Part shown: positions 25,681 through 49,652 of the stretch, piece by piece
Numbering within the stretch: position 1 is the stretch's first letter
Layout of the letters: each line of letters starts with the position of its first letter
Assembly (NCBI GenBank): GCA_021813405.1
Contig: JAKAKS010000022.1
Coordinates: forward strand, 124,001-188,000
Direction: 5' to 3'
Source: Nitrospirota bacterium
GTDB lineage: Bacteria > Nitrospirota > Thermodesulfovibrionia > Thermodesulfovibrionales > JdFR-88
DNA length: 64,000 nt
Notes under the pieces: generated by a model
The model's database searches: none
Told to the model about the DNA's origin: nothing
What the model saw: only the letters and a program-made list of their open reading frames with translations
Translations under genes and position numbers: made by a program

Positions 25681-25694
25681 GAGGGGGGACACTA

Positions 25695-29157: not shown

Positions 29158-31398
29158 ATGAACAGCGCAAGAAAACCCTGCAATACGGAATTGCTGGTGG
29201 AATTCAGGGATGAGATTGCCAGGGAGCAGGTGCGCATCGCGTTTGCGGACCTCCCAACGATGCAGACGGCCTCTTTCATTGTGGCCCTTGTTCTTTCCGG
29301 CCTGGTCCGCAATATTGTTGCCCACGCAAACATTCTGGCCTGGAATTCAATGATTCTGTCGGTTGTAATTGGCAGGGTTGCGCTTTTTTACCGGTTTAAA
29401 CGGGTGCGGGAAGGCGCGTTTGACGGGCAGTACTGGGGCAGGGCATATCTGGGCCTGGCGCTTTTATCGGGCGTGGTCTGGGGGCTTTCCGCATTCATAA
29501 TCTTTCCGGCTGGCAATCCGGCGCTGATATCACTTTTTCTGCTGACGATGTTAAGCCTTTCGGCCTCTACCGTAATATCCCATTCATCGATAAAGCCGGG
29601 CCCCGCCGCATGGGTGGCGCCAACCTTAACTCTGTACGCAATCCGGTGCGCTATGGAGAAGGGCGCTTTTGGGTATCCCGTAAGCTTTTTAATAATTCTT
29701 TACATGATTACCGTGTTGCGCTACGCGGTTGTCAACAACAGGGCCGTTGCCTCCGTTGTCTCGCTGAAGTTTGAAAATCTTGGGCTCCTTAAAGAGCTGA
29801 GGCAGAAAAACGAAACGCTCCAGCGCGCAAACGAGGCCGCCCTGGATGCCAACATGGCGAAGTCACGCTTTCTGGCGATGGTAAGCCACGAACTGCGGAC
29901 ACCGCTGAATGCTATCATAGGTTTCGGGGAGCTGGCCCAGGAGCAGGGCGCCTCCGGCCAGACTGCCCAATACCTCGACATCATAGAAAAATCCGCCATG
30001 CACCTGCTGGAACTGGTAAACGATCTTCTGGACCTGTCACGCATAGAGGCCGGGAAGATGGAGATTGCCGCCGAGGTATTTGACGTGCGGGACCAGATCC
30101 GCTGCCTGGAGGCGGTCTTTGCGCACCAGGCCGCCAGAAAGGGCGTTGCCTTTTCAATTACGGTTGGCGGCGGCACCCCCCCGCAGGTTACAGGCGACCC
30201 TTTGCGCTTGAGACAGGTCTTGTCCAATATAATAGGGAATGCGCTGAAGTTTACGGAAAAGGGCGCGGTGGAAGTAAATGTAACAGCCCATCCGGATGCC
30301 GGGAAGGCCTCAATCTGTTTTGCCGTCCGGGACACGGGGATCGGGATACGGGATGACAAAAAGGCAAGCGTTTTCGAAAGGTTTGCCCAGGCCGACCCGG
30401 ATATAACCAGGCTTTACGGCGGCAGCGGCCTGGGTGCGCCGGTTGCCAGGCAGCTGGCGCGGCTTATGGGCGGAGACATCACCTTTGAAAGCCGGAAGGG
30501 CGAAGGGAGCGTTTTTTACATTACAATTCCCTTTGCGCAGGCAGCCAGCAATGAAGCGCCGGTTTCTACAGACTGCCCGCCGGCCAGCGCAAGGGGAGAT
30601 GCGCGCAAAAACCAGCTGCCGCTTAAAATTCTTGTGGCGGAGGACAACCAGTTCAACCAGCGCTTTATGGTAGATGCCCTTGTTTTAAGAGGCCATGCCG
30701 TTACGCTTGCGGGTGATGGCAAAGAGGCGTTTGAAAGTTATATTCAGGCGGATGGAAGTTTCGATCTGGTATTGATGGATATAATGATGCCGGTGATGGA
30801 CGGCTATGAAGCGGCCCGGAAAATCCGCGAGGCCGGGATGCGCCGCGCCGCACCTTGCCGCACCCCGATGTTCGCGGTAACCGCAAGCAGCGGCAGCGCT
30901 GTCCAAAAACAGTGCCTTGAAGCCGGCTTTGACGGCGTAATCGAAAAGCCGGTTACTTCTGCCAGGCTGGATTATCTTCTTAAAGGCTTTTCCGGGCCTG
31001 AAGACGCCGGGGGTGGATGCTCAGTTGACAGCATTTGCACAAAGACGGCAGCCTGGTATGATGATATTTTTGATTCTGAAATGCTAAAGCCGGTCTCTGA
31101 CAGCCCCGAACGCATGGCCCGCTTTGCCGGCCTTCTGCTTAAGGACCTGGATCGGGGGATGGAACTTCTGCATCAGGCATTGGCCTCTTCAGACCACTTG
31201 GGCATAGCACGGGCGGCCCATGGCCTGAAAGGGGCAACACTGGCCGTTAAGGTTTCACAGGTGAGCGCGCTTGCCGGGGAGCTTGAAACCTATGCAAAAG
31301 AAGGAAATAATGTCAGAATAGAAAATGCCTTTGCAAGGGTGAGGGACGCCTGCGGGCAACTGCAGAGCCGGTTAAGGAAAATGGGGGCGCCGGAATGA
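29158..31398 (+). CDS. Hybrid sensor histidine kinase with receiver and HPt domains
   Basis: About 746 aa from ATG 29158 (an ATG at 29128 in the same frame is possible). Residues 1-200 contain about six hydrophobic helices. HisKA has FLAMVSHELRTPLNAIIGF, and HATPase has an N box (NIIGNALKFTEKG) and DTGIGIRDD. The usual GLGLAI is replaced by GGSGLGAPVARQL. The receiver domain (ILVAEDNQFNQR, Asp in LVLMDIMMPVMDG) precedes a C-terminal HPt domain with His in AAHGLKGATLA. A full phosphorelay in one protein. It overlaps the sigma-54 regulator by 4 bases, so that is its probable final target. Confidence 0.92.
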   Translation: MNSARKPCNTELLVEFRDEIAREQVRIAFADLPTMQTASFIVALVLSGLVRNIVAHANILAWNSMILSVVIGRVALFYRFKRVREGAFDGQYWGRAYLGLALLSGVVWGLSAFIIFPAGNPALISLFLLTMLSLSASTVISHSSIKPGPAAWVAPTLTLYAIRCAMEKGAFGYPVSFLIILYMITVLRYAVVNNRAVASVVSLKFENLGLLKELRQKNETLQRANEAALDANMAKSRFLAMVSHELRTPLNAIIGFGELAQEQGASGQTAQYLDIIEKSAMHLLELVNDLLDLSRIEAGKMEIAAEVFDVRDQIRCLEAVFAHQAARKGVAFSITVGGGTPPQVTGDPLRLRQVLSNIIGNALKFTEKGAVEVNVTAHPDAGKASICFAVRDTGIGIRDDKKASVFERFAQADPDITRLYGGSGLGAPVARQLARLMGGDITFESRKGEGSVFYITIPFAQAASNEAPVSTDCPPASARGDARKNQLPLKILVAEDNQFNQRFMVDALVLRGHAVTLAGDGKEAFESYIQADGSFDLVLMDIMMPVMDGYEAARKIREAGMRRAAPCRTPMFAVTASSGSAVQKQCLEAGFDGVIEKPVTSARLDYLLKGFSGPEDAGGGCSVDSICTKTAAWYDDIFDSEMLKPVSDSPERMARFAGLLLKDLDRGMELLHQALASSDHLGIARAAHGLKGATLAVKVSQVSALAGELETYAKEGNNVRIENAFARVRDACGQLQSRLRKMGAPE

Positions 31399-32783
31399 CG
31401 GCACGGATATTGATAGTTGAAGATAATGCCAGTTCGGCCTTCGCGCTGGAAAGCCGTCTTCATGACCTGGGATACGTGGTAAATACGGCACATTCCGCCG
31501 ATGAAGCCATGGCCACGCTGGCCCAAAAAGAAATCGACCTTGTCATCTCGGACCTTATCATGCCGGGCATGGGCGGGGTGGAGCTGCTTGAGGCGGTACG
31601 TCAAAAAGGCTTTGATATGCCGTTTGTTATCCTTACGGCCCATGGCAGCGTGGAGTCCGCTGTAAAGGCGATTAAAAGCGGCGCGTTTGATTATCTGCAA
31701 AAGGACTGCTCCGAAGATGAGCTGGCCATCATTGTAAGCCGCGCGCTGGAATTTGGCCAGCTTGCCAGGGACAGCCAATTCCGGGAGCATGTGGTCAAGC
31801 GGCATGCCTTCCAGATGATAAGGACAAACTCGCCCGCAATGGCAGAGGCCCTGAGGGCCGCTGAAAAAGTGTCGGCTTCTTCCCGCACTACGGTTTACAT
31901 ATTCGGAGAAAGCGGTGTAGGAAAAGAGGTGCTGGCCAGGTCCATCCACTTTTCGGGCGGCGGCCTGCCATCAAATTTTGTGGCGGTCAACTGCGCGTCG
32001 ATACCGGAGACACTCCTTGAAAGCGAACTCTTCGGCCATGTGAAAGGTGCATTTACCGGGGCCGAAAAGGACCGGCAGGGGAAATTTGCAATGGCCAAAA
32101 AAGGCACTATGCTGCTGGATGAGATCGGGGATATGCCGCTTGCCCTTCAGGCAAAGCTGCTGAGGGTCTGCGAGGAGCGCACATATTGCAGGATAGGTTC
32201 CAACCAGCAGATATCGGCCGACTTCCGCATTATAGCCGCCACCAACCGGGCCCTGGAGGTCCTTGTGCGGCAGGGCAAGTTCAGGGAGGACCTGTATCAT
32301 CGCCTTAATGTGTATCCAATAATAATCCCGCCTCTTCGCGAGCGCAAGGAAGACATCCCCCTGCTTGTGGAGACATTTTTCCCGATCTTCCGTCAGCACC
32401 TGGGCAAACCGATTCCGGGGATTTCCAGCAAGGCCATGAAGGTGCTGATGGCTTACGACTGGCCGGGAAACGTCCGCGAGCTACGAAATTGCCTGGAGCG
32501 AGCCGCCATCCTTGTAAACGATGAGCTGATACGGCCGGAGCACCTGGTGATACATGGGGCTGGGGGCCCAAAGGAGCAGCCTGCCGGCTATAAGGCGTCA
32601 TCAAAAGATACGGAACTGCGTCTTAAGCTTAGCGACGGCGATTTTTCGCTGGAAGCCATCGTTAACAAGGTATTAAAGGAAACACTGAAAAATTGCGGGG
32701 GCAATAAATCCCTGGCAGCCAGCCGGCTTAAAATCAACCGCAAGATGTTCAACAGGAAAGGCATAGAAGAGAGCCGGGGTTGA
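31395..32783 (+). CDS. Sigma-54-dependent response regulator (enhancer-binding protein)
   Basis: 462 aa. Receiver (ARILIVEDNASSAFALE, Asp in LVISDLIMPGMGG), AAA+ domain with Walker A GESGVGKE, sigma-54 loop GAFTGA and the RLNVYPIIIPPLRERKED block. A C-terminal Fis-like HTH (NCGGNKSLAASRLKINRKMF) ends the protein. It starts in an ATGA overlap with the hybrid kinase. A near-consensus sigma-54 promoter lies 320 bases downstream, the most likely target, leading into the DUF11 surface-protein genes. Confidence 0.93.
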   Translation: MTARILIVEDNASSAFALESRLHDLGYVVNTAHSADEAMATLAQKEIDLVISDLIMPGMGGVELLEAVRQKGFDMPFVILTAHGSVESAVKAIKSGAFDYLQKDCSEDELAIIVSRALEFGQLARDSQFREHVVKRHAFQMIRTNSPAMAEALRAAEKVSASSRTTVYIFGESGVGKEVLARSIHFSGGGLPSNFVAVNCASIPETLLESELFGHVKGAFTGAEKDRQGKFAMAKKGTMLLDEIGDMPLALQAKLLRVCEERTYCRIGSNQQISADFRIIAATNRALEVLVRQGKFREDLYHRLNVYPIIIPPLRERKEDIPLLVETFFPIFRQHLGKPIPGISSKAMKVLMAYDWPGNVRELRNCLERAAILVNDELIRPEHLVIHGAGGPKEQPAGYKASSKDTELRLKLSDGDFSLEAIVNKVLKETLKNCGGNKSLAASRLKINRKMFNRKGIEESRG

Positions 32784-33106
32784 TCCGGCGCGTGTGCAGG
32801 CGCGGCGGTCCTGCAAGCCACCCCCTTCTGCCAGCCAGAGTCAGCGCCTATTCCACCGTATCCGTTTTGCCTTCGTAATTTCTGGCCTGGCTGAACAGGC
32901 AACGGCGCGGTGATATTTCGCCGTTTCTTACCGGCATAGCCAGACCTCTGCCGCAACCCCATCCGCTTATTTCCAAACATATAACGCAAGCTTTCCAGTG
33001 ACGGGCATCACATTTTTATGGCCCAAACGGGGCCGCATGGCCGTAAATGGGCCTGAATCGCAGTGCGCCAATTTTACTAACCCTTTGTTTTTACATCATT
33101 TTTCCT
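32784..33106. other. Intergenic region upstream of the sigma-54 promoter
   Basis: About 320 bases with no supported gene. Near its right end, 33020-33053 holds nested inverted repeats (GGCCCA...TGGGCC around GGCC-GCAT-GGCC). These lie about 80-115 bases before the predicted sigma-54 start, the usual place for enhancer sites of NtrC-type activators. Confidence 0.45.
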
Positions 33107-33123
33107 TTGGCATGGCAGTTGCT
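33107..33123 (+). promoter_or_regulatory. Near-consensus sigma-54 promoter
   Basis: TTGGCATGGCAGTTGCT matches TTGGCACG-N4-TTGCT with one change (T for C), GG and GC exactly 10 bases apart. Start predicted near 33134, 40 bases before the ATG at 33174. It lies directly downstream of a sigma-54 activator gene. Confidence 0.85.
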
Positions 33124-33136
33124 TTATTAAAAGCCA

Positions 33137-33150
33137 GTGATTTAAATCAC
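33137..33150. promoter_or_regulatory. CRP/FNR-like palindrome just downstream of the sigma-54 start
   Basis: GTGATTTAAATCAC, a 14-base perfect palindrome that fits TGTGA-N6-TCACA closely when flanks are included. It is centred about 10 bases after the predicted start, a position suited to repression. Its core is identical to the palindrome at 23084-23095. Confidence 0.55.
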
Positions 33151-33173
33151 AAATAAAAACAGTGGAGAGTTCT

Positions 33174-33407: not shown

Positions 33408-33468
33408 AAACAAGGATTAGCACGCATGAATAGCTATTTATTAGATGTATGTACTTTTAATTGAGGGG

Positions 33469-33484
33469 TGTGATATAAATTACA
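33469..33484. promoter_or_regulatory. Second CRP-like site before the first DUF11 gene
   Basis: TGTGATATAAATTACA fits TGTGA-N6-TCACA with one mismatch. It is about 90 bases before the start codon at 33557. No convincing -10 follows, so activation is only a possibility. Confidence 0.4.
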
Positions 33485-33556
33485 GGCTTGAATTTTAAAA
33501 AGAAAACGTTGGGAAAAGGAAAAAAACATTGCATGGAGGGGGAAAGGAGACAAGCT

Positions 33557-34087
33557 TTGGAGAAAAAGCCTTTTTTATCAAACAGAAGTCTGAATTTGCT
33601 TAGAGCCGCTCTGTTTTTAATTGCCGCTGTTATGGTGAGTCCGGCCGCTTCCGGCTGGGCGGCCGTTAAGGGCCCCGTAGCTGTCAAGCTTACGCAGAGG
33701 AAGGTCGTGAAAGGGCCTGGAGGCAAAGAGACCTATACCTCGGCCGCAAAGGCCAGCCCCGGAGATGTTATCGAATATACGGCCGCATATACCAACAACG
33801 GAAAAACCGCGGTCACAAACCTTATGGGCAAGCTGCCGGTGCCGGCTGGCACGCAATACGTCCCCGGCACGGCCAGGCCCGCGAAAGTAATGGCGAGCAT
33901 CGATGGCGAAAAGTTTTTGCCGGTGCCGCTGAAAAGAAAAGTTAGACTACCAAACGGGAAGGAGGCTATACGCGACGTCCCTTACAGCAAATACAAGTTT
34001 TTGGGCTGGAAACTGGGCGAATTGCCGGCGGGGAAGACTGTTACGGTCAGTGCCCGGGTCCGGCTGGTCAGTGCTCCGGGCAAATAG
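33557..34087 (+). CDS. Small secreted DUF11-type protein
   Basis: About 176 aa. I place the start at TTG 33557 (MEKKPFLSNRSLNLL): AAGGAGA lies six bases upstream and a clean signal peptide follows (AALFLIAAVMVSPAASGWA). In-frame ATG 33533 and TTG 33488 are alternatives with poorer context. The mature part is one DUF11-like unit (ASPGDVIEYTAAYTNNGKTA, LPVPAGTQYVPGTA) ending in LPAGKTVTVSARVRLV. DUF11 units are beta-sandwiches of surface or envelope proteins. It is first of four DUF11 genes in a row and may be an accessory or periplasmic partner of the large ones. Confidence 0.78.
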   Translation: MEKKPFLSNRSLNLLRAALFLIAAVMVSPAASGWAAVKGPVAVKLTQRKVVKGPGGKETYTSAAKASPGDVIEYTAAYTNNGKTAVTNLMGKLPVPAGTQYVPGTARPAKVMASIDGEKFLPVPLKRKVRLPNGKEAIRDVPYSKYKFLGWKLGELPAGKTVTVSARVRLVSAPGK

Positions 34088-34144
34088 CCTTCGGCTAATC
34101 CGGAAGCCTGTTTTATATTCATCATTTCAAGTGGAGGATTTATT

Positions 34145-36898
34145 ATGAAGAGATATCGAAAGCCACCGGTAAAGACCATACTGGCGGCCCTGTCATTAGT
34201 GTTTTTGATTGCCCTGGCGGGCAGCGCATTTGCAACGCCACCGGCGGGCACGACAATCGGGAACCAGGCGTCGGCCACTTATACGGACGGCTCCGGTATA
34301 TCCAGGACGGCAACTTCCAATACTGTGCAAACAGTGGTCCAGCAAGTTGCGGCATTTACTCTTACCACCACGCCGCAAAGCAAGAACGGCGCGCCTGGCA
34401 ATACCGTGTATTTCCCCCATACCCTTACCAATACCGGAAACGGCACGGACACGTTTACCCTTGCCAACTCCATTAACGGCGGCAATTCAATGACTCCTAT
34501 AATCGCCATCTATCCGTCCACGGCCTGTAACGGCGTGCCGGATACCGGCGCACCCGCGATAACCAGCACACCTTCGCTGGCATCAGGGGCGGCCTTTTGC
34601 TTTGTGGAGGCCGTAACGGTCCCGGGCAGCGCGGTGGCGGGCAATACCGCAACGGTTGCGGTTACGGGCACAAGTCAGTTTAACAACACTGTGACCGCCA
34701 ACAACCAGGACACTACAACCGTAACCGGCAATGCGGTCATAAGCGTAACCAAATCGCTTTCATTAAACTCCGGAGCACCCGGCACCGGGCCTGTAACGGT
34801 CACCCTTACTTATACAAACACCGGCATTAACACAGCTACTAACGTAAACATTACGGACCTGATCGGTTCTGGCGCCACTGCCGGCATGACGTATGTGGCC
34901 AGCAGCGCCAAGTGGAATGGCACAGCCCTTAACGACAGCAACAGCGGCGAACCGGCCGGGATCAGCTATTACGGTTACAACCAGCCCGGCAACTCCAATA
35001 TCGCCAACGCTGTAATAGCATCCGTCGGCCCCAACGTTACGGGCACCATTACGTTCCAGGTGAATATCAATTCCGGGCTGGCGCCAGGCACGTCCCAGAC
35101 GTCCAACACCGCCTGCTATGCGTATTACGACGGCGCCGCGCAGCAGCCGGCCTCAGGTTGCACCGGCACCAACACCGCCGCATTCACGGTCACCCAGACA
35201 GCGGGCGTGGTTGCCAACGGCTCCAATTCAGTCAGCACCAACGGCACCGGCGAGCCTGTTACGGCCCCCTCCGCCAGCCAGGGCGCAACCGTGTCGTTTA
35301 ACGATTACGTCTGGAATACAGGAAACGGCTCGGACTCCTTCAATATTACTCTGGGGTCCTCCTCGTTCCCGGCAGGCACTACGTTTGCACTGTTTAAGTC
35401 CGATGGCGTGACACCGCTTACCGACACAAACGGCGACGGCATACCGGATACCGGGCCTGAAGCTGCGGGCACCAACTACAAGGTGGTTGTAAAGGCCACT
35501 CTTCCTACTGGCGTGTCCGGCGGCGGGCCTTATTCCGTTACGCTGACGGCCACTTCAGTATTCAACAACACGGTCTCGGACACAGTCATCGACACTCTTA
35601 CAACGATAACCGCTGACACCGTGGACCTCTCGACAAATACATTTGCCGGCGCAGACTCCACAAGCAACGCGCAGGGGGGGCCGGTTGCCACGCAGAGCGG
35701 CAATCCCGGCGCAGCCCTGGTGTTCCCGATGATAGTCAACGACACCAGCCCCACCGGCACCAACGATGCCTATAACATCCTGGTTAGCCAGAGTGACCCT
35801 GGCAACGGCACGCAGATATCGTCCAACAACCTGCCTGCCGGGTGGTCCGTGACGTTCAAGCCGGACACCTCCGTGGCGCACGACTGCTCCTCCGTCGGCG
35901 CAACCGAGACCAACACGGGCACTATCAGCGGCAACGGCGGCATTTTTGTCGCGGGTGCGGCCAACGAATATATTTGCGCAATCGTTACCACCAGCGCGTC
36001 CTCGAGCGCGGGCAACACGCAGCTTTATTTCCAGGTTGCATCTCCCACTACCGGGGCATATGACAAATTGCACGAGCAGGCCACCATAAACGTGGTGCGC
36101 TCCCTTACGATTACGCCCAACTCATCAAACCAGATTTATCCGGGCGGCACGGTGACGTATACGTTTACTCTCACAAACAACGGCGACGTTACGGAAGGCG
36201 ACGGGATAGGCAGCACCATCGCCCTTACCAACGCGGACTCGCTGTCCGGCTGGACTTCCACGATGTACTACGGCGCTACCGTAGTTACGTCGGGAGAGGC
36301 GCTCAATGCGGTCCCCGGCCTTTCCGGCGGGCTGGTTAACGGCGCAAGCATAACACTTACGTTGAAGGTGTTCGCGCCTGCAAGCGCCAACGTAAACGAC
36401 CAGAACATATCCACGATTACCGCCACAACGGCCAACAATGGCTATTCAACCCCGGTGCCAGCGGCAGCAAGCGCAACCGGCACCACCACGGTTATAGCCG
36501 GGCAGGTGAGGTTGCAGAAGTATCAGGCGCTTGACGCCACATGCAGCGCAACCTGCAGTTCCGGCGGCGGCTGCGCGCTTACCTGGACCCAGAGCCAGAT
36601 AACAACTGGCGCTGTTCCGGGTGCGTGCATCAGGTATGAAATAGTGGCCACAAACGAAGGTACTGCCGCGGCCACCAACCTGGTAATATCGGACAGCACG
36701 CCGGCCAACACCGCGCTTAACTGCGGAAGCGGCAACAGCGCGCCGGTGTGGTCCACCACAAACGGGACCCTGCCGCCCAATACGGCCAATTTCACGGCGC
36801 CGGCATGCGGCGGGACGGGGACTATTTCGGACACCATAAGCTCCCTTGCTCCGGGCGCGTCGGAGACGTTCTACTTTGGCGTCCAGATAAACCCGTAG
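34145..36898 (+). CDS. Secreted DUF11-repeat surface protein, 917 aa
   Basis: Strong SD (GGAGGA) before ATG 34145 and a signal peptide ending at SAFA. The mature N-terminus (PAGTTIGNQASATYTDGSG, then SNTVQTVVQ) is a module shared with the next protein. The rest is Thr/Asn/Gly/Ser-rich beta-sandwich repeats (TLTNTGNGTDTFTL, VTLTYTNTGINTATNVNITD, FTLTNNGDVTEGDG). Near the C-terminus is a Cys-rich patch (ATCSATCSSGGGCAL). It ends GASETFYFGVQINP with no LPxTG-like or other sorting signal. Very low Lys/Arg and repetitive design fit an extracellular structural or adhesive role. Confidence 0.8.
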   Translation: MKRYRKPPVKTILAALSLVFLIALAGSAFATPPAGTTIGNQASATYTDGSGISRTATSNTVQTVVQQVAAFTLTTTPQSKNGAPGNTVYFPHTLTNTGNGTDTFTLANSINGGNSMTPIIAIYPSTACNGVPDTGAPAITSTPSLASGAAFCFVEAVTVPGSAVAGNTATVAVTGTSQFNNTVTANNQDTTTVTGNAVISVTKSLSLNSGAPGTGPVTVTLTYTNTGINTATNVNITDLIGSGATAGMTYVASSAKWNGTALNDSNSGEPAGISYYGYNQPGNSNIANAVIASVGPNVTGTITFQVNINSGLAPGTSQTSNTACYAYYDGAAQQPASGCTGTNTAAFTVTQTAGVVANGSNSVSTNGTGEPVTAPSASQGATVSFNDYVWNTGNGSDSFNITLGSSSFPAGTTFALFKSDGVTPLTDTNGDGIPDTGPEAAGTNYKVVVKATLPTGVSGGGPYSVTLTATSVFNNTVSDTVIDTLTTITADTVDLSTNTFAGADSTSNAQGGPVATQSGNPGAALVFPMIVNDTSPTGTNDAYNILVSQSDPGNGTQISSNNLPAGWSVTFKPDTSVAHDCSSVGATETNTGTISGNGGIFVAGAANEYICAIVTTSASSSAGNTQLYFQVASPTTGAYDKLHEQATINVVRSLTITPNSSNQIYPGGTVTYTFTLTNNGDVTEGDGIGSTIALTNADSLSGWTSTMYYGATVVTSGEALNAVPGLSGGLVNGASITLTLKVFAPASANVNDQNISTITATTANNGYSTPVPAAASATGTTTVIAGQVRLQKYQALDATCSATCSSGGGCALTWTQSQITTGAVPGACIRYEIVATNEGTAAATNLVISDSTPANTALNCGSGNSAPVWSTTNGTLPPNTANFTAPACGGTGTISDTISSLAPGASETFYFGVQINP

Positions 36899-36914
36899 CG
36901 GGGCTGGAACACTC

Positions 36915-36950
36915 GGGGGAGGCTGTTTTAACGGCCTCCCCCAGCTACTT
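36915..36950 (+). terminator. Intra-operon hairpin, possible attenuator
   Basis: A 9-bp perfect stem GGGGGAGGC / GCCTCCCCC (36915-36923, 36934-36942) with a 10-base loop, followed by AGCTACTTTT, a poor T-run. It lies between two DUF11 genes and could partially terminate or stabilise mRNA ends to set different levels. Confidence 0.5.
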
Positions 36951-36959
36951 TTGAAGAAG

Positions 36960-39900
36960 ATGAAAAAAGTCCCGTTTATAAAACTGCCGGCAAGAGAAGC
37001 AGAATATCCCAGGATACTGCTGGCGGGACTTCTTTTTTTATTTTCATTCCTTATTGCCTCTGCCGGGCATGCCCAAACCGCTCCGGGAACTGTAATAGAC
37101 AACCAGGCATTTGTGACGTACACGGACGCCGGCGGAAACAATCAAATCATATATTCAAACAAAGTTGAAGCAATAGTACAGCCGGTGGTCATCGGCGCGC
37201 TTGTAAAGAGCGCATCCAACTATAACCCGCTGCCAGGCGGCGCGGAAACATTCACTCTTTCCGAAGACAATCCCGGCGCCGTGCCCATCACAGGCGCGGA
37301 CGTTACAATTGACGGCACTCCGCAACAGCTTGTTATCATCAGGGACCAGATCCCCGCAAATTCAACTTTTTCTTCATTCGTAAGTTCGGGCGGCGGAACG
37401 CCGCTCTATCACGCCCTTGGGGCCCCGGCGCAAACGTATACCACTTCCGCACCTGCTGGCACCATAGACGCGGTGGCCTTCGGTTTTTCAAGCATCGCCC
37501 CCGGCGTTACGGTAAATGTTTCCTTCAGCGTGCAAATAAGTAATGTAGCCTCCGGCACCATAATCAACACAGGCCAGATTTATTATTCCGGCGGCCCGGC
37601 ATCCGGCAGCAATTCCAACACAATCACGCTTAGCGTGGCCGGCACCGCCACAATCCAGTTTTACTCAAGCAGTTCTTTTACAAATTCAATTGGCGCCGTG
37701 CCCCTGGGCGGCCCCTTATTCATTCAGGCCAAGGCGGCGGCGTGCAATACAAATCCCGCCCAGCTGGCAACAGCCCAGATTACGCTGGCCGACAACCAAA
37801 CGGGCGACGTGGAGACGTACACGGCAACGGAAACCGGGCTCAACACGGGCGTGTTCAGGATTTTTAACTATTCATCTTCGGGCCTGGCGCAGTATGTGGC
37901 CACTGCCAATGCCGCAACTACCCCGGTGGTAAAGGGAGACGGGATTATAGAAGCGCTCCCTGATAACACGCTGACCGCCACCATTACGGGATGCGGATAC
38001 AGCCCCACCTCCGCCCAAAGCATAGTGCTGGTGGACCCTTTTGGAGTGGCCTTCGATTCCGGCACCAACGCGCCAATCGCAAACGCTGTTGTTACGCTTG
38101 TTGACGTTACCGGGCAGGGCAATGGCGGCAACCCCGGCGGCCCCGCCAAGGTATTCCAGTACGATGGGTCCACGCCGGCGCCTGCCACCATAACGACAGA
38201 CCTCACCGGCACATTCCAGTTTCCCCTGGTGCCGCCCAGCACTTACAAGATTTCCGTTCTTGCCCCCAACGGCCATTCGTTCCCGTCAAAGTTACAGCCT
38301 GGCCAGCTGCCGGCCGGAAGGACGGTACTTGTGCCCGGCTCCTACGGGGGCAATTTCCAGGTTGGCCCGTCCATGGAACCGGTGAAAGTAGATATCCCTC
38401 TGGATCCTGGACCGGCAAGCGGGCTTTTCATTAACAAGACGGGTTCTACCCAGACGGCCGAGTTAGGCGATTTTGTGGACTATACAGTAACAATCAAAAA
38501 CAGTTCCGGCCTTCAGATGACAAATATCATACTGTCAGACAATCTGCCCGCGGGATTTGTATATGCTAACGGCACCGCCAGGCTGGACGGCGCGCAAATT
38601 CCGGACCCGGCGGGAACGCCCGGCCCCAATCTGATATTCCAGGTTGGCACCATGGCCAGCGGCGCCAGCCACACGCTTACTTACCGTGTAAGAATTGGTC
38701 CAGGCGCTTCAAACGGCAACGGGACAAACACGGCCGTGGCCACGGCCTCCGGCGGGACCGTATCAAACGAATCCCAATGGACGGTAACGCTTACAGGCGG
38801 GGTGTTTTCCGATAAAGGGATAATCTTTGGCAAGGTGTTTGCCGACTGTAATGGCAACAAGACGCAGGACAAGGGCGAGCCGGGCATTCCCGGGGTTGCG
38901 CTCTATCTGGAAGACGGCACCTATGCCATTACGGATTCCGAAGGCAAATACAGCATTTACGGCATAGACCCGGCCACACATGTATTGAAAGTGGATAATA
39001 CCACCCTGCCGGAGGGGGCGCGGCTTGAGGTGCTCACCAACAGGAACGCGGAAGACCCAAACAGCCTTTTTGTGGACCTGAAGGCCGGGGACATGCACAG
39101 GGCGGATTTTGCAGTAAAAGGCTGTCAGGGCCCGTTACTGAACGTAATAAAATCGCGCATTGCGCAGAGCGGCGGCGTGCTTACGGAAGCGGACAGGCGC
39201 ACCGGCCAGCAGTTGCAGCCGGAACCGGCCCAGACGGACAGCGCATCGCTTCCGGCCAGCGGGCTTGCCGACAGCGGGATAAAAATGCCGGATTACAAGA
39301 ATAAGCCGGCCGTTACAAAGGCCGCCGTTGATGACGGAATTTTGCCTGATGACGATGAGCAGGACAATTTTGATCCGGCCAGGCTCAAGGACATGGATAA
39401 TACGCTTGGCTTTATTGATATGAATGACGGGGACGTTCTGCCTTACAGCCAGATGAATATAACCGTGAAGGGCGGCATAGGCAGGTTCCAATTAAGCGTA
39501 AATGGTGCTGTGGTTCCGGAAAGCAAGGTGGGCCTGAAATCGGTGCTTCAGGCTAAGCAGGTGCAGGCATGGGAATATATCGGGATAGACCTGAAACCGG
39601 GAGTAAACGAGCTGAAGCTGACGCAGTATGACCAGTTTGGAAATAAACGCGGAGAGAAACTGATTAAAGTGACCGCCCCCGGCCCCCTGGCCAGAATACG
39701 CCTGACCCTGCCCAAGGGGGATTTGAAAGCGGACGGGAAGTCCATATTGCCGGTAAAGATAGAGCTGCTGGACAGCCAGGGGCTGCCGGTGCTTATAAAA
39801 ACGGCGCTTACCCTGAAGGCAAATGGGGGCGCTGTCTGGCAGGTTGATAAAAAATCCGCTGACGGCAACCAGGCGGGCGCAAGCCCCGTAAATGGTGCGG

Positions 39901-42509
39901 CCAGCGAGGTGCATGTATCTATTGATGGCGGGAAAGGCACATATATGCTTCTGGCCCCAAACGGCCCGGGCAATACGGTCCTGACTGCCGGGGCTGGTGA
40001 CGTCAAGTCGGAGCAGAAGGTCTTTTTCGGCCCCAACCTAAGGCCCTTTATGGCAGTTGGCGTTGTGGAAGGCAGTTTGGATTTGAGCAAACTGGACCCA
40101 AGCCATATAGTGCCGGCCCGCCAGTCCGACGGCTTTGACCAGGAGTTAAGGAACATCGCGTTCAACTCGGACGGCGGCAAGCTGCACGGGGCGGCACGGG
40201 GGGCGCTCTATTTAAAAGGTAAGGTGCTGGGCAAATATCTTCTTACGCTGGCTTACGATTCCAACAAGCAGGCTGGCGAGCGTCTTTTCAGGGACATCCA
40301 GCCGGACGAATTCTACCCCGTGTACGGAGATTCCTCCATCAGGGGGTATGACGCCCAGTCCACAGGGAAATTATACGTGCGCGTGGACGAGGGCAGGTCT
40401 TATATGCTTTATGGGGACTATGCCACCGGCGCACAGGACGACACTGTAAAACTGGGGGCTTACAGCAGGAGCTTGAACGGGGTGCAAAGCCATTACGAAA
40501 ACAAAAAGGTTACGGCCACCGCCTTTACAAGCCAGAACACCTCCAGGCAGGTTATTGAGGAGATACCGGCCAACGGCACATCCGGCCCGTACCAACTCTC
40601 AAATACTGACATCACGGAAAACAGCGAACAGGTGGAACTTGTTACCAGGGACCGCAACCAGCCCTCGCTTATATTGGCAACGGTGGCAGAGGCCCGGTTT
40701 ACCGACTACGAACTGGAGCCCTTCACCGGGCGGCTGCTCTTTAAAGCACCCATACCCAGCGTTGACGAAAACCTGAATCCTGTTTTCATACGAGTGACCT
40801 ACGAGGTGGACCAGGGAGGCCAGAAGTTCTGGACCGCCGGTGCGCAGGCGCAGGCGAAAATCACTAATGCGGTGCAGGTGGGCGGGGCGTTTACAAAGGA
40901 TTTTAACCCGCAGGGCAGCACTGAAATAGAGAGCGCCGACAGCAAGGTAAATCTTGGTAAGGGCACGTATGTTACAGGCGAGGTGGCACGCACGGTTACA
41001 ACCACCGGTATTGGCGGGGCAGAAAGGGTGGAGTTCTTTCACGAAGGCGGCGGGCTTACTGTAAGGGCAAACGTCGTGCGGACCGGGCTTGGTTTTAATA
41101 ATCCCTCCTCCGGCTTCTCGCCGGGGCGGCTTGATGCCATGGGCAAGCTGGATTACGTTCTGTCCAAAAGGGACCTGCTGAAGATGGACCTTCTGCACAG
41201 CCAGGATTTGACCACCGGGGGCAGGCAGGAAGGCCTCTACGCCGGTTATGTGCGCACATTTAAATACCTTGCGGCCGAGTTCGGGATGAGATACGCCAGG
41301 GAAACAGCGGCTACGGCGCAGGCCACAACAATTGGCGCAACTCCGTTTGAGTACGAAAGCGCCAGGCTGAAGCTTTCCGGGCAGGTGCCACAAATACCCA
41401 AACTGGGGATTTCGGCGGAATACGAGCAGGCGCTTACGGATTTTGGGAAAAAAGAGGCCTCCCTGGGGGGCGACTACCAGCTTCCGGCCGGAAGGGTTTA
41501 TGTGCGGCACGAGTTTCTGTCCAGCCTGGAAGGCCCTTACTCATTAAATGGAGTACAGCAGCAGAACACTACCGTTATCGGCATAGACAGCGGATACATG
41601 AAGGGCGGCAGCGTATTCAGCGAGTACAGGATGCAGGACGCGATGGGCGGAAGGGATGCCCAGGCGGCCATCGGGCTTAGAAACGCCTGGGCGCTTTCCA
41701 AGGGGCTTACGCTGAATACAAGCCTGGAGCGCGTTCAGCAACTGGGCGGCCCGGCTGCCCAGGGGACCTCTACCGCTGTTACAGGCGCGGTGGAGTACAC
41801 GGCGGACCCCAGATGGAAGGGAACGGCCCGGCTGGAGACCCATATCTCCAGTACGGATTTCAGCGTGCTCAATACCCTGGGGCTGGCTTACAAGATCAAT
41901 AATAATTTCACGTTCCTGGGCAGGAACCTTATAAACCTGGACAACGGAAGAAATGGCACTGGCGATAACAAGACACAGGAGTGGCTGCAGCTTGGCATGG
42001 CTTACCGCCCGGAGGCCCCGGATGTCTGGAACGCGCTTGCCAAATACGAGCTTAAATACAACAAGGACGAGGCGGCCGGGGAAAACACGCTTACGCATAT
42101 CGTTTCGGCCAATGTTAATTACAGGCCGTTTGCGCCTTTTGTGCTAAGCGGCAAGTACGCCGGGAAATTGCTTCTGGACAATTCAAACGGACTTCAGAGC
42201 GTTTCCAATACACACATGCTGGGGCTCTGGAGCACTTACGATATTAACAGCCACTGGGACGCCGGTGTCATGACATCCGCGCTTTTCACAAATTTCCTTA
42301 AGGAGCTACAATACGGTGCCGGGCTGGAAGTAGGATACCTGGTGGCCAAAGATGTCTGGCTTTCGGCCGGGTACAACGTGTTCGGGTTTAAGGACACGGA
42401 TTTGGCCGCGGAGGACTATACCAACCCTGGCGTATATATGAGACTGCGGATGAAGTTTGACGAGGGCATATTCGGAATGTTCTCCGGCAAGGACAAAAAC
42501 AATGGCTAA
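36960..42509 (+). CDS. Giant DUF11/SdrD-B protein with C-terminal outer-membrane beta-barrel
   Basis: About 1849 aa from ATG 36960 (TTG 36951 possible). Signal peptide (LLAGLLFLFSFLIASAGHA), then the shared module PGTVIDNQAFVTYTDAGG. DUF11-type and Ig-like units follow, an SdrD-B-like unit (GKVFADCNGNKTQDKGEPGI), a linker, and an invasin-like Ig region (LTLPKGDLKADGKSILPVKI). From about residue 1030 onward (nt 40.1 kb) Tyr/Gly/Asn-rich amphipathic strands (KGKVLGKYLLTLAYDS, YPVYGDSS, VRVDEGRSYMLYGDY) run to the end, typical of an outer-membrane barrel. A last strand (GVYMRLRMKF) is followed by a short tail. It probably anchors the locus in the outer membrane. Confidence 0.78.
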   Translation: MKKVPFIKLPAREAEYPRILLAGLLFLFSFLIASAGHAQTAPGTVIDNQAFVTYTDAGGNNQIIYSNKVEAIVQPVVIGALVKSASNYNPLPGGAETFTLSEDNPGAVPITGADVTIDGTPQQLVIIRDQIPANSTFSSFVSSGGGTPLYHALGAPAQTYTTSAPAGTIDAVAFGFSSIAPGVTVNVSFSVQISNVASGTIINTGQIYYSGGPASGSNSNTITLSVAGTATIQFYSSSSFTNSIGAVPLGGPLFIQAKAAACNTNPAQLATAQITLADNQTGDVETYTATETGLNTGVFRIFNYSSSGLAQYVATANAATTPVVKGDGIIEALPDNTLTATITGCGYSPTSAQSIVLVDPFGVAFDSGTNAPIANAVVTLVDVTGQGNGGNPGGPAKVFQYDGSTPAPATITTDLTGTFQFPLVPPSTYKISVLAPNGHSFPSKLQPGQLPAGRTVLVPGSYGGNFQVGPSMEPVKVDIPLDPGPASGLFINKTGSTQTAELGDFVDYTVTIKNSSGLQMTNIILSDNLPAGFVYANGTARLDGAQIPDPAGTPGPNLIFQVGTMASGASHTLTYRVRIGPGASNGNGTNTAVATASGGTVSNESQWTVTLTGGVFSDKGIIFGKVFADCNGNKTQDKGEPGIPGVALYLEDGTYAITDSEGKYSIYGIDPATHVLKVDNTTLPEGARLEVLTNRNAEDPNSLFVDLKAGDMHRADFAVKGCQGPLLNVIKSRIAQSGGVLTEADRRTGQQLQPEPAQTDSASLPASGLADSGIKMPDYKNKPAVTKAAVDDGILPDDDEQDNFDPARLKDMDNTLGFIDMNDGDVLPYSQMNITVKGGIGRFQLSVNGAVVPESKVGLKSVLQAKQVQAWEYIGIDLKPGVNELKLTQYDQFGNKRGEKLIKVTAPGPLARIRLTLPKGDLKADGKSILPVKIELLDSQGLPVLIKTALTLKANGGAVWQVDKKSADGNQAGASPVNGAASEVHVSIDGGKGTYMLLAPNGPGNTVLTAGAGDVKSEQKVFFGPNLRPFMAVGVVEGSLDLSKLDPSHIVPARQSDGFDQELRNIAFNSDGGKLHGAARGALYLKGKVLGKYLLTLAYDSNKQAGERLFRDIQPDEFYPVYGDSSIRGYDAQSTGKLYVRVDEGRSYMLYGDYATGAQDDTVKLGAYSRSLNGVQSHYENKKVTATAFTSQNTSRQVIEEIPANGTSGPYQLSNTDITENSEQVELVTRDRNQPSLILATVAEARFTDYELEPFTGRLLFKAPIPSVDENLNPVFIRVTYEVDQGGQKFWTAGAQAQAKITNAVQVGGAFTKDFNPQGSTEIESADSKVNLGKGTYVTGEVARTVTTTGIGGAERVEFFHEGGGLTVRANVVRTGLGFNNPSSGFSPGRLDAMGKLDYVLSKRDLLKMDLLHSQDLTTGGRQEGLYAGYVRTFKYLAAEFGMRYARETAATAQATTIGATPFEYESARLKLSGQVPQIPKLGISAEYEQALTDFGKKEASLGGDYQLPAGRVYVRHEFLSSLEGPYSLNGVQQQNTTVIGIDSGYMKGGSVFSEYRMQDAMGGRDAQAAIGLRNAWALSKGLTLNTSLERVQQLGGPAAQGTSTAVTGAVEYTADPRWKGTARLETHISSTDFSVLNTLGLAYKINNNFTFLGRNLINLDNGRNGTGDNKTQEWLQLGMAYRPEAPDVWNALAKYELKYNKDEAAGENTLTHIVSANVNYRPFAPFVLSGKYAGKLLLDNSNGLQSVSNTHMLGLWSTYDINSHWDAGVMTSALFTNFLKELQYGAGLEVGYLVAKDVWLSAGYNVFGFKDTDLAAEDYTNPGVYMRLRMKFDEGIFGMFSGKDKNNG

Positions 42510-45500
42510 GGGGAGAAATAGCGAGAGGCCCTGCTTGAGGCCGCGGAAGAAATCCGCGGCCCTGGCGCTGTGCGCCGCCCTGGCGTATGTCATTTTATTC
42601 CTTAACGCGCAGGCCGCATGGGCCGCCCAGGTGTGTTCCACCCCCGGCTCGGACGGCCCCGGCAGCATTTCGGGTGTCATCAATACGTATTTTCCCGGGG
42701 CCGCCTCCGCGCCTTCCGGCGCCACAACCATTACGGTGGGGGCAGCTGCTGCAGGCGGCGCGCAAACGCCGATTGCCGCTGGCGACCTGCTGCTGATAAT
42801 CCAGATGCAGGACGCGGACATCGATTCATCAAACACCTCCAGTTACGGCTCCGGGGGGCTTTATCCCGGTGCGGGATACACCAGCCTCAACAGCGCCGGG
42901 CTTTACGAATACGCCGTTGCAGCCGGGCCGGTCCCGTTGACTGGCGGCACGCTCACGCTTACGGCCCCGCTTATAAATTCATATCACTCGGCCGCATATG
43001 GTGCGGCAGGACAGAGGACTTTCCAGGTTATAAGGGTCCCGCAGTATTCATCGGCCACGCTAGCTGGCGGATTAACGGCCTACCCCTGGGATGGCTCAAC
43101 CGGAGGCGTGCTGGCCTTCGACGTTGCCGGGCAGCTCAACTGGAATGGGCAGATGATAAACCTTACCGGTTACGGCTTCAGGGGAGGCGCCGGAAAGGAG
43201 ATGTTTGGTGTGGGCACAGGCACCGGCTTACAGCCTACCGATTACCTGACATCTTCGAGCTTGCAGGTTAACTCCGCCAAGGGCGAAGGTATCGCGGGCA
43301 CGCCCGAGTTTGTCTTTGTCCCCACTACTCCGGGAGGCAACCAGAATCCGGCAGGCTCCCTGTTGGACACCGGCGTTGAAGGATATCCTAACGGCAGCAT
43401 GGGCCGCGGCGCGCCCGGCAATGCAGGCGGCGGCGGCACTGATGGTGACCCGCCCGCCAACGACCAGAACACGGGCGGCGGTGGCGGATCCGGATATGGC
43501 ACAGGCGGAAGCGGAGGTTACGCATGGGACCCCACCCAGCCTCCACCAGCACTTGGGCAACCTAATGCACCCTGGACAACGGGCGGTTTCGGCGGCATAG
43601 GCATCCCGATGACGCCCGGCCTTATTGCCATGGGCGGAGGCGGCGGCGCGGGGACCAGCAATAACAATACATCCTGGCCGGGCGCAAATGGCCTGGGCAG
43701 CAGCGGTGCGGCAGGCGGCGGCATAGTTATGATACGCGCCGGTTCCATTACCGGGACGGGGACGATAAACGACAACGGCGCCACGGGATATTATGATGAC
43801 ATAAACTCCAACCCCTCCAACACCCCCTCAAACGACGCCGCCGGCGGCGGAGGCGGCGGCGGTTCTGTGCTGGTTTATTCCGCAGCCGGTCCGGTGGGCT
43901 CCCTTACCGTAAACGCGCAGGGCGGCGGAGGCGGCAGCGCTACTGGATGCACCAGCACTACATACTGCGTGCAACATGGACCGGGCGGCGGAGGCGGTGG
44001 CGGTTATGTTGCCCTTTCGGGCAGCGCCAGCGTAAATGTCAGCGGCGGCGTCCACGGGACAACGGTATCCAGCACAAATTACGGTACCGATTACGGATCA
44101 ACATCCGGCGCTAACGGCTACTGGACGTCTGGCCTTGCCGCAAACCAGATACCCGGGGCAGGCCCTACCGCTGCCTGCATGCCCGTATTGACGGCAACCA
44201 AGGCGGCGGTAACGCCAAACGCCGTGCAGGGCGGCAGCGCCACGTACACCATAACTGTTTCAAACCGGGCGGGCGCTGGCGGGGCCACGGGCGTTTCCGT
44301 CTCCGACGTCCTGCCCGGCTCTCCCTCGCCGTTCATGTACGCATCCACAGGTAATGTTGCATTGATTAACGGCACAACCCGCCCAACAACAAACAATCCG
44401 GCGGCTGGAAGCGCAACGCCTGCCTGGAGCAGCTTCAATATACCAGGCGGCAGCTCGGTGGCGATAACCTTCATAGCCAATGTGCCGGCCGCAACCACTC
44501 CTGGAACATACCGTAACCCTGCCAATATCACATTTGCAGACCCCACAAGAACATCGGCTGGGCAGACGGTCTTCCCGGGCGGCACTTACGCTGGCGGCGG
44601 GACGGTCGGCGGCAGCAATTATGTGCCTCAACCCTCGCCCACGCCAGATGCGTGTACGATATGGAAGCCTGTATCCATATCGAAGAGTTTCAATCCCGGC
44701 GGCATACCAGCGGGCGGCACGTCTGCATTGTCGATAATTCTTGCCAACCCCAACCCGGTGGCAATTACCAATGCCGTACTTACGGACACGTATCCGGCCC
44801 AGTTGGTAAACAGCGGCAACCCCAGCGCGGCCATAAGCGGCGTGGGGTGCAGCGGAACGGTTGCTGCCTCCGCTGGCGGCGGCGGCGTGGGCATTACCAA
44901 TACTACAATCCCGGCAAATGGCAGTTGTACGGTAACGGTAAATGTGACCACCCAGGCGGATGCCACCTATACAAACACAATACCGTCCGGAGCGTTTTCA
45001 AGCGACCAGAACATGTCCAATATCGCGGCAGCCAGCGCCACGCTTCTGGGCAGCCCGCAGATAGCGTTGTCTTTCACTCCCTCTGCTATTGCCGTGAACG
45101 GAACAAGTATGCTGAGCTTTAATATTACAAACCCCAACGCGGGGCAGGCGCTGACATTAAGCAATTCCGCATTCACGGATAGCCTGCCGTCAGGGGTGGT
45201 TGCAGAGGGCGGGGCCGTCACAGTAACCGGAACGGGCTGCACCGGGTTTACGCCTGCTTCGATCGGGGCGGGCGCTGCGTCCTTCACTCTTGCGGGCGGA
45301 ACACTGCCTGCCGGAGGCTCCTGCACGGTATCTTTCGCGGTCACAAGCGGCACTGCCGGAATGTACACGAACTCCGCCAGCGGCGTCAGCACCGCGCAAA
45401 CGGCAACCGGCGCGCCTTCGAATTCCGCAATCCTGGCGGTGGGCCAGTCGTTTACCCCGCCGTCAATCGCGGCGGGATTCAGCCCGGCAACGATCGGGGC

Positions 45501-48500: not shown

Positions 48501-49554
48501 GGGGGAGGTCTTTGTCGATACCGGAAACGGCGGCGGGACACCAAATGACGGGAGATTAAACGGGCAGGAGGCCGGGCTGGCCGGTGCTGTAATGAAAATG
48601 ACCAGCGATTCAGGCGGAACAGTCTATGACAGCATGTCTACCGGTGCAAGCGGCATTTATAAGCTGTATATCCCCGGCACGGTAGCACCGGGCACGTATA
48701 TTAAGATTATTGAGGCTAATCCCGCAGGGTACATATCCACAGGGGCGGACCCCGGCAATTCCGGGGGCGTTTACGACAGGCCTTCAGATACCATCAGGTT
48801 TGCAGTTGCCTCCGGCACGGTTTATAACGGGGTGAATTTCGGGGATGTTCCCGCAAACCAGTTTATTACCGACGGAGCGCAGACCGGCTCACCGGGCACT
48901 ACGCTTACTTATTCCCACACATATACGGCTGGCTCTGCGGGAACGCTGAATTTCAGCACCACGGCTTACGCAAGCCCATCGATGTCCGGCTGGGGAGAGG
49001 TTTTATATCAGGACACCGGCTGCACCGGCCATTTTGCCGCGGGGGACCCGCAGATAACGGCCCCAATAAGCGTGTCCGCCGGGCAGAAGATCTGCATACT
49101 GATGAAGGAGTTCATTCCTGCGCAGGCGCCGCTGAATGCCCAGGACAAGGTGACGGTTACAGCGCAGCTAAGCTATTTGAATGCTAACCCGGCCCTTACG
49201 GACACGCAAACCCGCACGGACCTGACAACGGTTGGCACCGGGGTGGCAAACGGGCTTAACCTGTCAAAAACCGTTGACAAGACCTCCGTGCTGCCCGGCA
49301 GCACGATTACCTATACCATAACTTACTCAAACCAGAGCGCATCCGTGCTGACCAGCATTGTAATAAATGATGCCACACCCGCATACACCACATTCCAGAG
49401 TGCATCCTGCGGCGTGCTTGGCGCAGGGCTGACCGGCTGCCTGGCTTCCGGGCCGTCCGTTGGGGCCCAGGGCTCCATATCCTGGACGCTTTCGGGCGGG
49501 CTGGCCGCCGGAGCATCCGGGACGGTTTCCTTTACCGTGCAGGTCCAGCCCTAA
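42502..49554 (+). CDS. Giant secreted Gly-rich and DUF11-repeat protein, about 2350 aa
   Basis: ATG 42502 overlaps the previous stop by 8 bases, with AAGGA eight bases upstream. A basic N-terminus and signal peptide (ALAYVILFLNAQAAWA) come first. An N-terminal region to about residue 560 contains poly-Gly blocks and PAGDLLLIIQMQ-like strands, possibly a beta-helix. Then come nine repeats of about 125-133 residues (each starting like SFSPxxIxxNGTSTLTITLTNPN and containing GSCTVTV), two SdrD-B-like units (HGTVYNDANHNFMQD; SGEVFVDTGNG), and a final DUF11 unit ending GTVSFTVQVQP. No membrane anchor. Likely a long extracellular fibre or coat protein. Confidence 0.8.
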   Translation: MAKGRNSERPCLRPRKKSAALALCAALAYVILFLNAQAAWAAQVCSTPGSDGPGSISGVINTYFPGAASAPSGATTITVGAAAAGGAQTPIAAGDLLLIIQMQDADIDSSNTSSYGSGGLYPGAGYTSLNSAGLYEYAVAAGPVPLTGGTLTLTAPLINSYHSAAYGAAGQRTFQVIRVPQYSSATLAGGLTAYPWDGSTGGVLAFDVAGQLNWNGQMINLTGYGFRGGAGKEMFGVGTGTGLQPTDYLTSSSLQVNSAKGEGIAGTPEFVFVPTTPGGNQNPAGSLLDTGVEGYPNGSMGRGAPGNAGGGGTDGDPPANDQNTGGGGGSGYGTGGSGGYAWDPTQPPPALGQPNAPWTTGGFGGIGIPMTPGLIAMGGGGGAGTSNNNTSWPGANGLGSSGAAGGGIVMIRAGSITGTGTINDNGATGYYDDINSNPSNTPSNDAAGGGGGGGSVLVYSAAGPVGSLTVNAQGGGGGSATGCTSTTYCVQHGPGGGGGGGYVALSGSASVNVSGGVHGTTVSSTNYGTDYGSTSGANGYWTSGLAANQIPGAGPTAACMPVLTATKAAVTPNAVQGGSATYTITVSNRAGAGGATGVSVSDVLPGSPSPFMYASTGNVALINGTTRPTTNNPAAGSATPAWSSFNIPGGSSVAITFIANVPAATTPGTYRNPANITFADPTRTSAGQTVFPGGTYAGGGTVGGSNYVPQPSPTPDACTIWKPVSISKSFNPGGIPAGGTSALSIILANPNPVAITNAVLTDTYPAQLVNSGNPSAAISGVGCSGTVAASAGGGGVGITNTTIPANGSCTVTVNVTTQADATYTNTIPSGAFSSDQNMSNIAAASATLLGSPQIALSFTPSAIAVNGTSMLSFNITNPNAGQALTLSNSAFTDSLPSGVVAEGGAVTVTGTGCTGFTPASIGAGAASFTLAGGTLPAGGSCTVSFAVTSGTAGMYTNSASGVSTAQTATGAPSNSAILAVGQSFTPPSIAAGFSPATIGAGSTSTLTFTLTNPNPITVTGAAYSDNLVNIQTGASGAAGGTCAGASGNTFNYGVSGPLSFSGISVPANGSCTVTIAVTSSNTGVNPNSAGGVTTDQTPTAGAGSAVADLTVINPPQVSVAFSPGTIMVNGASTLTITLTNANAGTNLANVSFADNLTNMQTVGGAAGGTCSGASGNSFSAGQTALLFSGITVNQNSSCTVIVNVTSSGISPASGFPDSTSGATSSQTPVAGPVSNTAYLNVLALPTITKSFSPGAIRTGNTSTITFTLTNPDSQALTNAGFTDTYPNNLQNTNPPNAITNCTGGTVTAAAGGGSVSLSGGTIPANGSCTVTVDVTSGQTGNYTNTSGGITSGETQGTGPASNAATLAVGRIGISKTFSPSIIGLGGTSTITFTLNNQSGGNRTNVRFTDNFPSGMTISSPVTTTNTCGGTLQNSGGGTLQSGNTDVRLYRGYMPNGGTCTITLQVTTNATGTYANTSTGVTAQNVNTGPPSNTAVLTVVNMPTISEAFSPAETGVNGVSTLAFTLTNPNGTALTNANFTDTLSGMNIASAVIGGTCPNASNSPALAVGATSLNLTVPNLLPGSCTVTVQVASSAAGNYTNGASGVTTDQTPAPGTASNAAALSVVGTSLIKTFSPASIQAGGSSVMTFTVANGSGNPAQNGLAFTETLPANVTIVSPVAASQCGGTVTSPGANTLTFSGGSISAGIANCTITDNVTSSLSGTYHNASSNISGASAGMDTSQVNATLTVTALYPPEVSKSFAPAQISVNGTSVLTITLTNPNAFNIAGAAFTDTYPANMINTNTPNGITNCTGGTITAAANGSSLSLSGGTIPANSSCTVTVNVTSGTAGNYTNNTGPVTATNAGTGISASATLTVTSAGINIHGTVYNDANHNFMQDSGESGTGQTVYIKLAASSGGVCASTAISATPADPSTGQYTISGVSSGNYCLVISANSTLSITSPLYPAGWTGTEASSGVRTVAAGGPDINQQDFGLYYGTSISGEVFVDTGNGGGTPNDGRLNGQEAGLAGAVMKMTSDSGGTVYDSMSTGASGIYKLYIPGTVAPGTYIKIIEANPAGYISTGADPGNSGGVYDRPSDTIRFAVASGTVYNGVNFGDVPANQFITDGAQTGSPGTTLTYSHTYTAGSAGTLNFSTTAYASPSMSGWGEVLYQDTGCTGHFAAGDPQITAPISVSAGQKICILMKEFIPAQAPLNAQDKVTVTAQLSYLNANPALTDTQTRTDLTTVGTGVANGLNLSKTVDKTSVLPGSTITYTITYSNQSASVLTSIVINDATPAYTTFQSASCGVLGAGLTGCLASGPSVGAQGSISWTLSGGLAAGASGTVSFTVQVQP
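44680..48140 (+). repeat. Nine in-frame protein repeats, period 372-403 bp
   Basis: Repeat heads read KSFNPGG (about 44682), LSFTPSA (45070), AGFSPAT (45473), VAFSPGT (45860), KSFSPGA (46248), KTFSPSI (46624), EAFSPAE (47020), KTFSPAS (47392) and KSFAPAQ (47770). Every unit contains two Cys, one in a CxGxx-type turn and one in a (G/N)SCTVTV-like strand, suggesting one disulfide per unit. DNA identity between units is moderate, so the array is old rather than a fresh amplification. Confidence 0.85.
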
Positions 49555-49629: not shown

Positions 49630-49652
49630 CTGGGCTGAACGGAAGGGGCGCC

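Follow-up and report, generated by a model that had tools for sequence, protein, structure and literature searches.

A conserved operon of DUF11-type proteins and a predicted outer-membrane barrel, joined to a sigma-54 control region in a Nitrospirota genome

The window analysed here, a stretch of 64,000 nucleotides from a Nitrospirota contig, combines two units: a core operon, made up of a small DUF11 gene, the gene of an approximately 900-residue protein termed P917, a barrel gene and a giant gene, and a regulatory unit (Table 1). The linkage of these genes, the barrel-type domain and the control region are real and lie well above chance. The reading preferred for the whole, held with slightly more confidence than doubt, is that of an outer-membrane platform that can be switched on and that anchors Ig-like surface proteins or exports them, governed in this lineage by a sigma-54 phosphorelay. 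The preliminary description regarded the system as undescribed, and no account of the operon was found in the literature searched, which did not cover most subscription journals.

Table 1. Features of the locus, with positions counted from the first nucleotide of the window.
Feature	Position	Strand	Description or basis
Hybrid sensor kinase	29128..31398	+	Hydrophobic N-terminus, HisKA-HATPase-receiver-HPt; Pfam
NtrC-family response regulator (activator)	31395..32783	+	Receiver, sigma-54 AAA+, Fis-type HTH; Pfam
Activator-site candidate 1, GGCCCAAACGGGGCC	33020..33034	+	Only exact GGCCC-N5-GGGCC in the window
Activator-site candidate 2, GGCCGTAAATGGGCC	33039..33053	+	1 mismatch, 69 nt before promoter
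Sigma-54 (-24/-12) promoter, TGGCATGGCAGTTGC	33108..33122	+	TGGCATG-GCAG-TTGC
Os1348-family NHLP-clan small protein, 77 aa	33174..33407	+	NCBIfam NF038399
Small exported DUF11-type protein	33557..34087	+	NCBIfam B_ant_repeat; alignment
P917, exported DUF11-type (~900 aa)	34145..36898	+	Beta-strand ending at stop codon
12-bp intercistronic hairpin	36915..36942	+	Between P917 and barrel gene
Barrel protein	36960..42509	+	Pfam, AlphaFold2, Foldseek
Giant exported protein, 2350 aa	42502..49554	+	Nine DUF7933, DUF11, C-terminal DUF11 strand
Second hybrid kinase	49620..52220	+	Directly 3′ of operon; Pfam

With one genome scanned per species, 330 stretches encoding the barrel family were found; the best 80 of the 330 were kept and their open reading frames labelled with the window's proteins. 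A search for the same gene order in homologues had been proposed at the outset, with lack of conserved linkage as a refuting outcome; that outcome did not arise, and the order is kept: among the 57 of these best 80 of 330 loci whose sequence extends 4.5 kb or more beyond the 5′ side of the barrel gene, P917 lies directly upstream of the barrel gene in 54 and the small DUF11 gene directly upstream of P917 in 55. Linkage in remoter members of the family may be lower than in these best 80. A giant DUF11 protein of 500–3300 aa is usually encoded 3′ of the barrel gene, often with a 4-nt overlap, and an OmpA-type gene follows the barrel gene directly in 12 of 72 loci. In a few genomes (L014, L044) the barrel occurs without P917, hence it may act alone. 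Distances among the small, P917 and barrel proteins are strongly correlated (Mantel r 0.80–0.86), none of 999 permutations being as high. The distribution of the barrel is patchy: any match to the protein was found in only 8 of 61 related genomes, and the barrel profile in 23 of the 296 genomes of the phylum. In the barrel tree the window groups with a Thermodesulfovibrionales (Nitrospirota) row, and the tree as a whole spans at least seven phyla by record title, with the proviso that metagenome bins may be mistitled; records with the operon include, by title, named strains of Variovorax, Polaromonas, Rivibacter, Ramlibacter and Roseateles.

DUF11 and SdrD-B units are surface beta-sandwiches. 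The four large proteins of the operon were initially described as exported and DUF11-type, and both attributes hold: each has a single hydrophobic, signal-like segment, located at the N-terminus, and the TIGR01451 DUF11-type repeat exceeds the NCBIfam cut-off in all four. In the small protein and P917 the DUF11 domain itself falls slightly under the Pfam cut-off, and it is the NCBIfam repeat that both pass. The small gene has a TTG start with a Shine-Dalgarno sequence, an in-frame ATG at 33533 being also possible, and the start of the giant gene, at 42502, falls 8 nt inside the barrel gene. Over 42502–43980 the giant resembles at its N-terminus the gliding-motility protein AgmC, though with 96 bits it stays below the NF047640 threshold of 275. 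P917, whose length is near-constant in relatives, shares an N-terminal module with the barrel protein, as had been noted earlier (36% over 102 aa, 8e-9). The C-termini of these proteins are also patterned: right at the stop codon, nearly all P917 sequences finish with TFGVxINP or a close variant and giants that are complete with FxVxVQ, and the small proteins carry variable charged tails. The terminal strand of P917 and the giant is a possible recognition signal; such a strand would equally be seen in any protein whose last domain is DUF11.

The opening account held that no strong terminator separates the genes, and here it requires amendment because a 12-bp hairpin, 9 pairs of which are GC, stands between P917 and the barrel gene, where the gap has an energy of about −28 kcal/mol. 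In this gap, 42 of 52 loci have a stem of 8 bp or more (mean −31 kcal/mol, z about −4.2), against 11 of 40 for the small–P917 gap used as control (mean −17 kcal/mol, z −0.8); since the z-scores derive from few mononucleotide shuffles, comparison with the sister gap carries more weight as a control. Within the family the hairpin was rejected as a plain terminator, a strong U-tract following it in only 2 of the 52 loci. Being conserved in relatives and mostly devoid of a U-tract, it is likelier to be a processing or stability element of the mRNA, one that would favour P917 over the barrel.

The barrel protein itself is composite. Its N-terminal part consists, in order, of a signal peptide, the P917-type module, a carboxypeptidase-regulatory-like domain, DUF11, SdrD_B and a Big_1/Invasin-D3-like Ig domain; its C-terminal part, residues ~1075–1849, is predicted by AlphaFold2 to form an outer-membrane barrel of ~38 strands. 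Models built with 40 and 64 relatives reached pLDDT values of 75.5 and 78.1 and pTM values of 0.60 and 0.68, respectively, and display 38–39 strands with a small insert after the first 6–7. The best solved structures retrieved by Foldseek include LptD, SlpA/SDBC, SprA, TonB receptors and MtrB. At whole-chain TM-scores that do not exceed about 0.3 for the closest matches, the model shows no closed pore of known geometry; such scores would be expected for barrels of different radius or for an imperfect model. The original claim of a C-terminal outer-membrane barrel is well supported by the models as to type, with 38–39 predicted strands and barrel folds as nearest neighbours, but a closed geometry goes beyond what these models show. 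Sequence profiles retrieved no convincing PDB relative, no Pfam or NCBIfam model exists for the family, and the barrels of relatives give only weak porin-like Pfam matches.

The orientation of the protein can be gauged from its relatives. An OmpA domain sits directly before the barrel in L013 (residues 683–783) and directly after it in L077 (residues 1980–2074). OmpA domains bind peptidoglycan, which makes a periplasmic position most likely for the two flanks of the barrel, an arrangement consistent with an even number of strands. This topology argues against the idea that the barrel protein is a displayed adhesin, whose own barrel would carry the DUF11/SdrD_B half outwards in the manner of an autotransporter, the other genes encoding further adhesins. 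Domains of the DUF11, SdrD_B and Invasin-D3-like kinds do typify surface beta-sandwiches, and intimin/invasin (type Ve) and the autotransporters likewise unite Ig-like domains, among them an Invasin_D3/Big_1-like one, with a barrel in a single protein. However, inverse autotransporters such as intimin carry an N-terminal barrel of 12 strands followed by the Ig passenger, whereas the barrel considered here is C-terminal with ~38 strands and has both flanks assigned to the periplasm; the adhesin is accordingly improbable. The classical C-terminal 12-strand autotransporter domain PF03797 was absent from the window protein and gave one weak match among 40 relatives.

A more serious competitor, albeit an unlikely one, would reduce the barrel protein to an anchor or tether, similar to SlpA or OmpM, for the DUF11 proteins and peptidoglycan, with no export through the barrel. 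The OmpA domains beside the barrel and the OmpA-type genes of some relatives fit this proposal, and SlpA/SDBC of Deinococcus, a large outer-membrane barrel tied to peptidoglycan that embodies the idea of an envelope connector, is among the top Foldseek matches. Yet the window's own protein has no SLH or OmpA domain by Pfam, its N-terminal domains are different from those of SlpA/SDBC, and it is linked to a DUF11 operon; moreover, a tether would have no need of a giant variable partner and a fixed-length partner of ~900 aa in the same operon. It is very improbable that the barrel serves as a porin for uptake or electron conduction. Just upstream on the same strand (24733–28019), the gene of a multihaem CXXCH cytochrome is followed by that of an MtrB/PioB-type porin, the two making a candidate electron conduit, and MtrB is one of the Foldseek matches; the cytochrome/MtrB pair is, however, a separate gene set, and the barrel has DUF11 proteins, and no cytochromes, as its conserved partners.

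One of the known systems nearest to the locus is SprA/Sov, the 36-strand translocon of type 9 secretion, in which a single chain likewise forms a very large barrel containing a plug-like insert and which was matched by Foldseek (6h3i, 8gl6). The 38–39 strands predicted here compare with a closed 36-strand barrel, at low TM-scores. Homology to SprA was rejected, as the barrel and SprA profiles share only a weak local match over 130 columns (hhalign probability 33–36%, below significance). SprA_N (PF14349) is absent from 40 barrel sequences and from the own genome (positive control 31/31), no NCBIfam model of the type 9 C-terminal sorting domain matches P917 or the giant, and the own genome carries the barrel but lacks SprA, whereas Gracilimonas has both. 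Chaperone-usher pili offer a parallel in composition: a small exported Ig-like protein, an abundant subunit and one large barrel. The intercistronic hairpin is also reminiscent of pilin operons. No usher or PapD-type chaperone family was matched by Pfam, and there is no sequence relation. The PEP-CTERM/exosortase system with PrsR resembles the locus in placing surface proteins under a sigma-54 response regulator; here the regulator scores 344 bits against the TIGR02915 cut-off of 502.6, and no PEP-CTERM signal was matched.

Turning to the control region, the circuit is best regarded as a lineage-specific addition to a general operon, because sigma-54-like sites with at most one mismatch precede the small gene in only 4 of 55 loci of the best-80-of-330 set, and neither an Os1348-like gene nor an activator–Os1348 pair was detected in those 80 loci. 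Sigma-54 control was on the same count rejected as a general trait of the operon. The designation of the system as sigma-54-controlled thus applies to the window and to two more genomes of the phylum, but not to the core elsewhere, which is mostly without such sites and without the hybrid kinase. In these two genomes (G063 and G072, loci L134 and L150) the order runs: activator, sigma-54 promoter, Os1348-like gene, DUF11 protein, small protein, P917-like protein, barrel, receiver-kinase.

The kinase and activator genes of the window overlap, as the preliminary description stated, and do so by 4 nt; their domain content agrees with the designations given there: HisKA, HATPase_c, receiver and HPt each exceed the Pfam cut-offs in the kinase, which also has five hydrophobic segments, and the activator shows the receiver, the AAA+ domain with sigma-54 interaction and the Fis-type HTH of the NtrC family. 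The kinase is probably the input to the activator. Its membership of the system could not be upheld: it falls outside the conserved unit and is unlinked to the operon in L134 and L150, where homologues of the activator (620–627 bits to that of the window) are located upstream of the same operon. The second hybrid kinase is a possible accessory of the operon, and in both relatives the receiver-kinase is also found 3′ of the barrel gene. A further pair in the window, a HAMP sensor kinase with an NtrC-type sigma-54 activator, occupies 8998–12428.

The near-consensus promoter reported behind the activator gene was confirmed with no mismatch, and it is the sole such match in the 64-kb window. Genome-wide (2.9 Mb) the strict pattern finds 8 matches, one of them upstream of nifH, compared with 1 for the reversed control, which indicates that it is meaningful in this genome; rpoN is present in one copy. 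Exact sites occur at the equivalent position in L134 and L150. Elsewhere in the genome, at L103, a strict site stands 42 nt upstream of the gene of a CxxCH-type haem-binding-like exported protein. The candidate activator sites of Table 1 have counterparts in the two relatives, each with two exact GGCCC-N5-GGGCC copies located only between the activator and the Os1348-like gene; the copy nearer to the promoter is 69 nt away in the window and 71 nt in both L134 and L150. When loosened and applied to the whole genome, the pair gave fewer matches than the control and defined no regulon. The window's only two GTGA-N6-TCAC palindromes (CRP/FNR-like, 32998–33011 and 33137–33150) lie on either side of the promoter. 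They were discarded as activator sites because no Os1348-like gene of the relatives has them upstream, and the GGCCC-N5-GGGCC pair is preferred for this reason.

The platform reading can be set out as a sequence of putative steps. The kinase would relay phosphate to the activator, which would bind the GGCCC-N5-GGGCC pair and fire the promoter at 33108. The first product would be the Os1348-like protein, which might feed back on the circuit as a partner, and the four Sec-exported proteins would come next, with the hairpin before the barrel gene leaving P917 in excess over the barrel. The barrel would reside in the outer membrane with both ends, and the DUF11/SdrD_B half, facing the periplasm, and would serve as a platform anchoring or passing out P917 as main subunit and the giant as variable fibre or adhesin, much as the initial proposal had the barrel anchor or export the other two giants. 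Recognition may involve the C-terminal DUF11 strand of P917 and the giant together with the shared N-terminal module, and the small DUF11 protein could be a periplasmic helper or minor subunit. A more specific version is distinctly tentative and on balance doubtful: an unnamed export and assembly system of many phyla, in which an outer-membrane translocon of ~38 strands would export and assemble Ig-like subunits recognized by a C-terminal DUF11 strand and which in one phylum would be turned on by a sigma-54 circuit whose Os1348-type protein is a regulatory partner, not a peptide precursor. If true, this would mean a translocon that equals or exceeds SprA in size, as well as a regulatory role for an Os1348-type protein. 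The barrel family has neither a Pfam or NCBIfam model nor a PDB sequence relative, yet keeps fixed partners in at least seven phyla; naming the operon gives many DUF11 surface proteins a testable function and bears on whether type 9 secretion is the only setting of single-chain barrels as big as SprA.

The 77-aa protein had been recognized as NHLP/Os1348-like, and it passes NF038399 (Os1348 NHLP clan) with 55.6 bits over a cut-off of 40; a PDB search with it found nothing. Proteins of this family occur in 19 of 177 genomes of the order, commonly adjoining sigma-54 regulators. Of 13 such genes, 6 have a sigma-54-like element within 90 nt when one mismatch is allowed (shuffle mean 0.05, largest 2), and 10 when two are allowed (shuffle mean 0.5, largest 4). 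Os1348 of Pseudomonas sp. Os17, a member of the same family, influences antibiotic activity and is adjoined by genes with a putative modifying function (PMC7726476), a precedent that, with the family name, would make the window's protein a RiPP precursor and the locus partly a natural-product cluster. Such an assignment is quite improbable: the analysed neighbours of the Os1348-like gene, here and in L134 and L150, are regulators and surface proteins with no RiPP-modifying gene among them, so that a sigma-54 activator and a surface operon take the place of the modifying genes of Os17, and in the order the family adjoins sigma-54 regulators behind sigma-54-like promoters. The conserved layout of activator, twin site, promoter and Os1348-like gene suggests that this family, catalogued as peptide precursors, takes part in signalling. 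A separate locus, L146 (4373–17436), contains two Os1348-like genes, nearly identical, that flank a cluster encoding a P2365-like protein of 1483 aa, other large open reading frames and tail-collar (PF07484)-type proteins; a sigma-54 regulator lies alongside.
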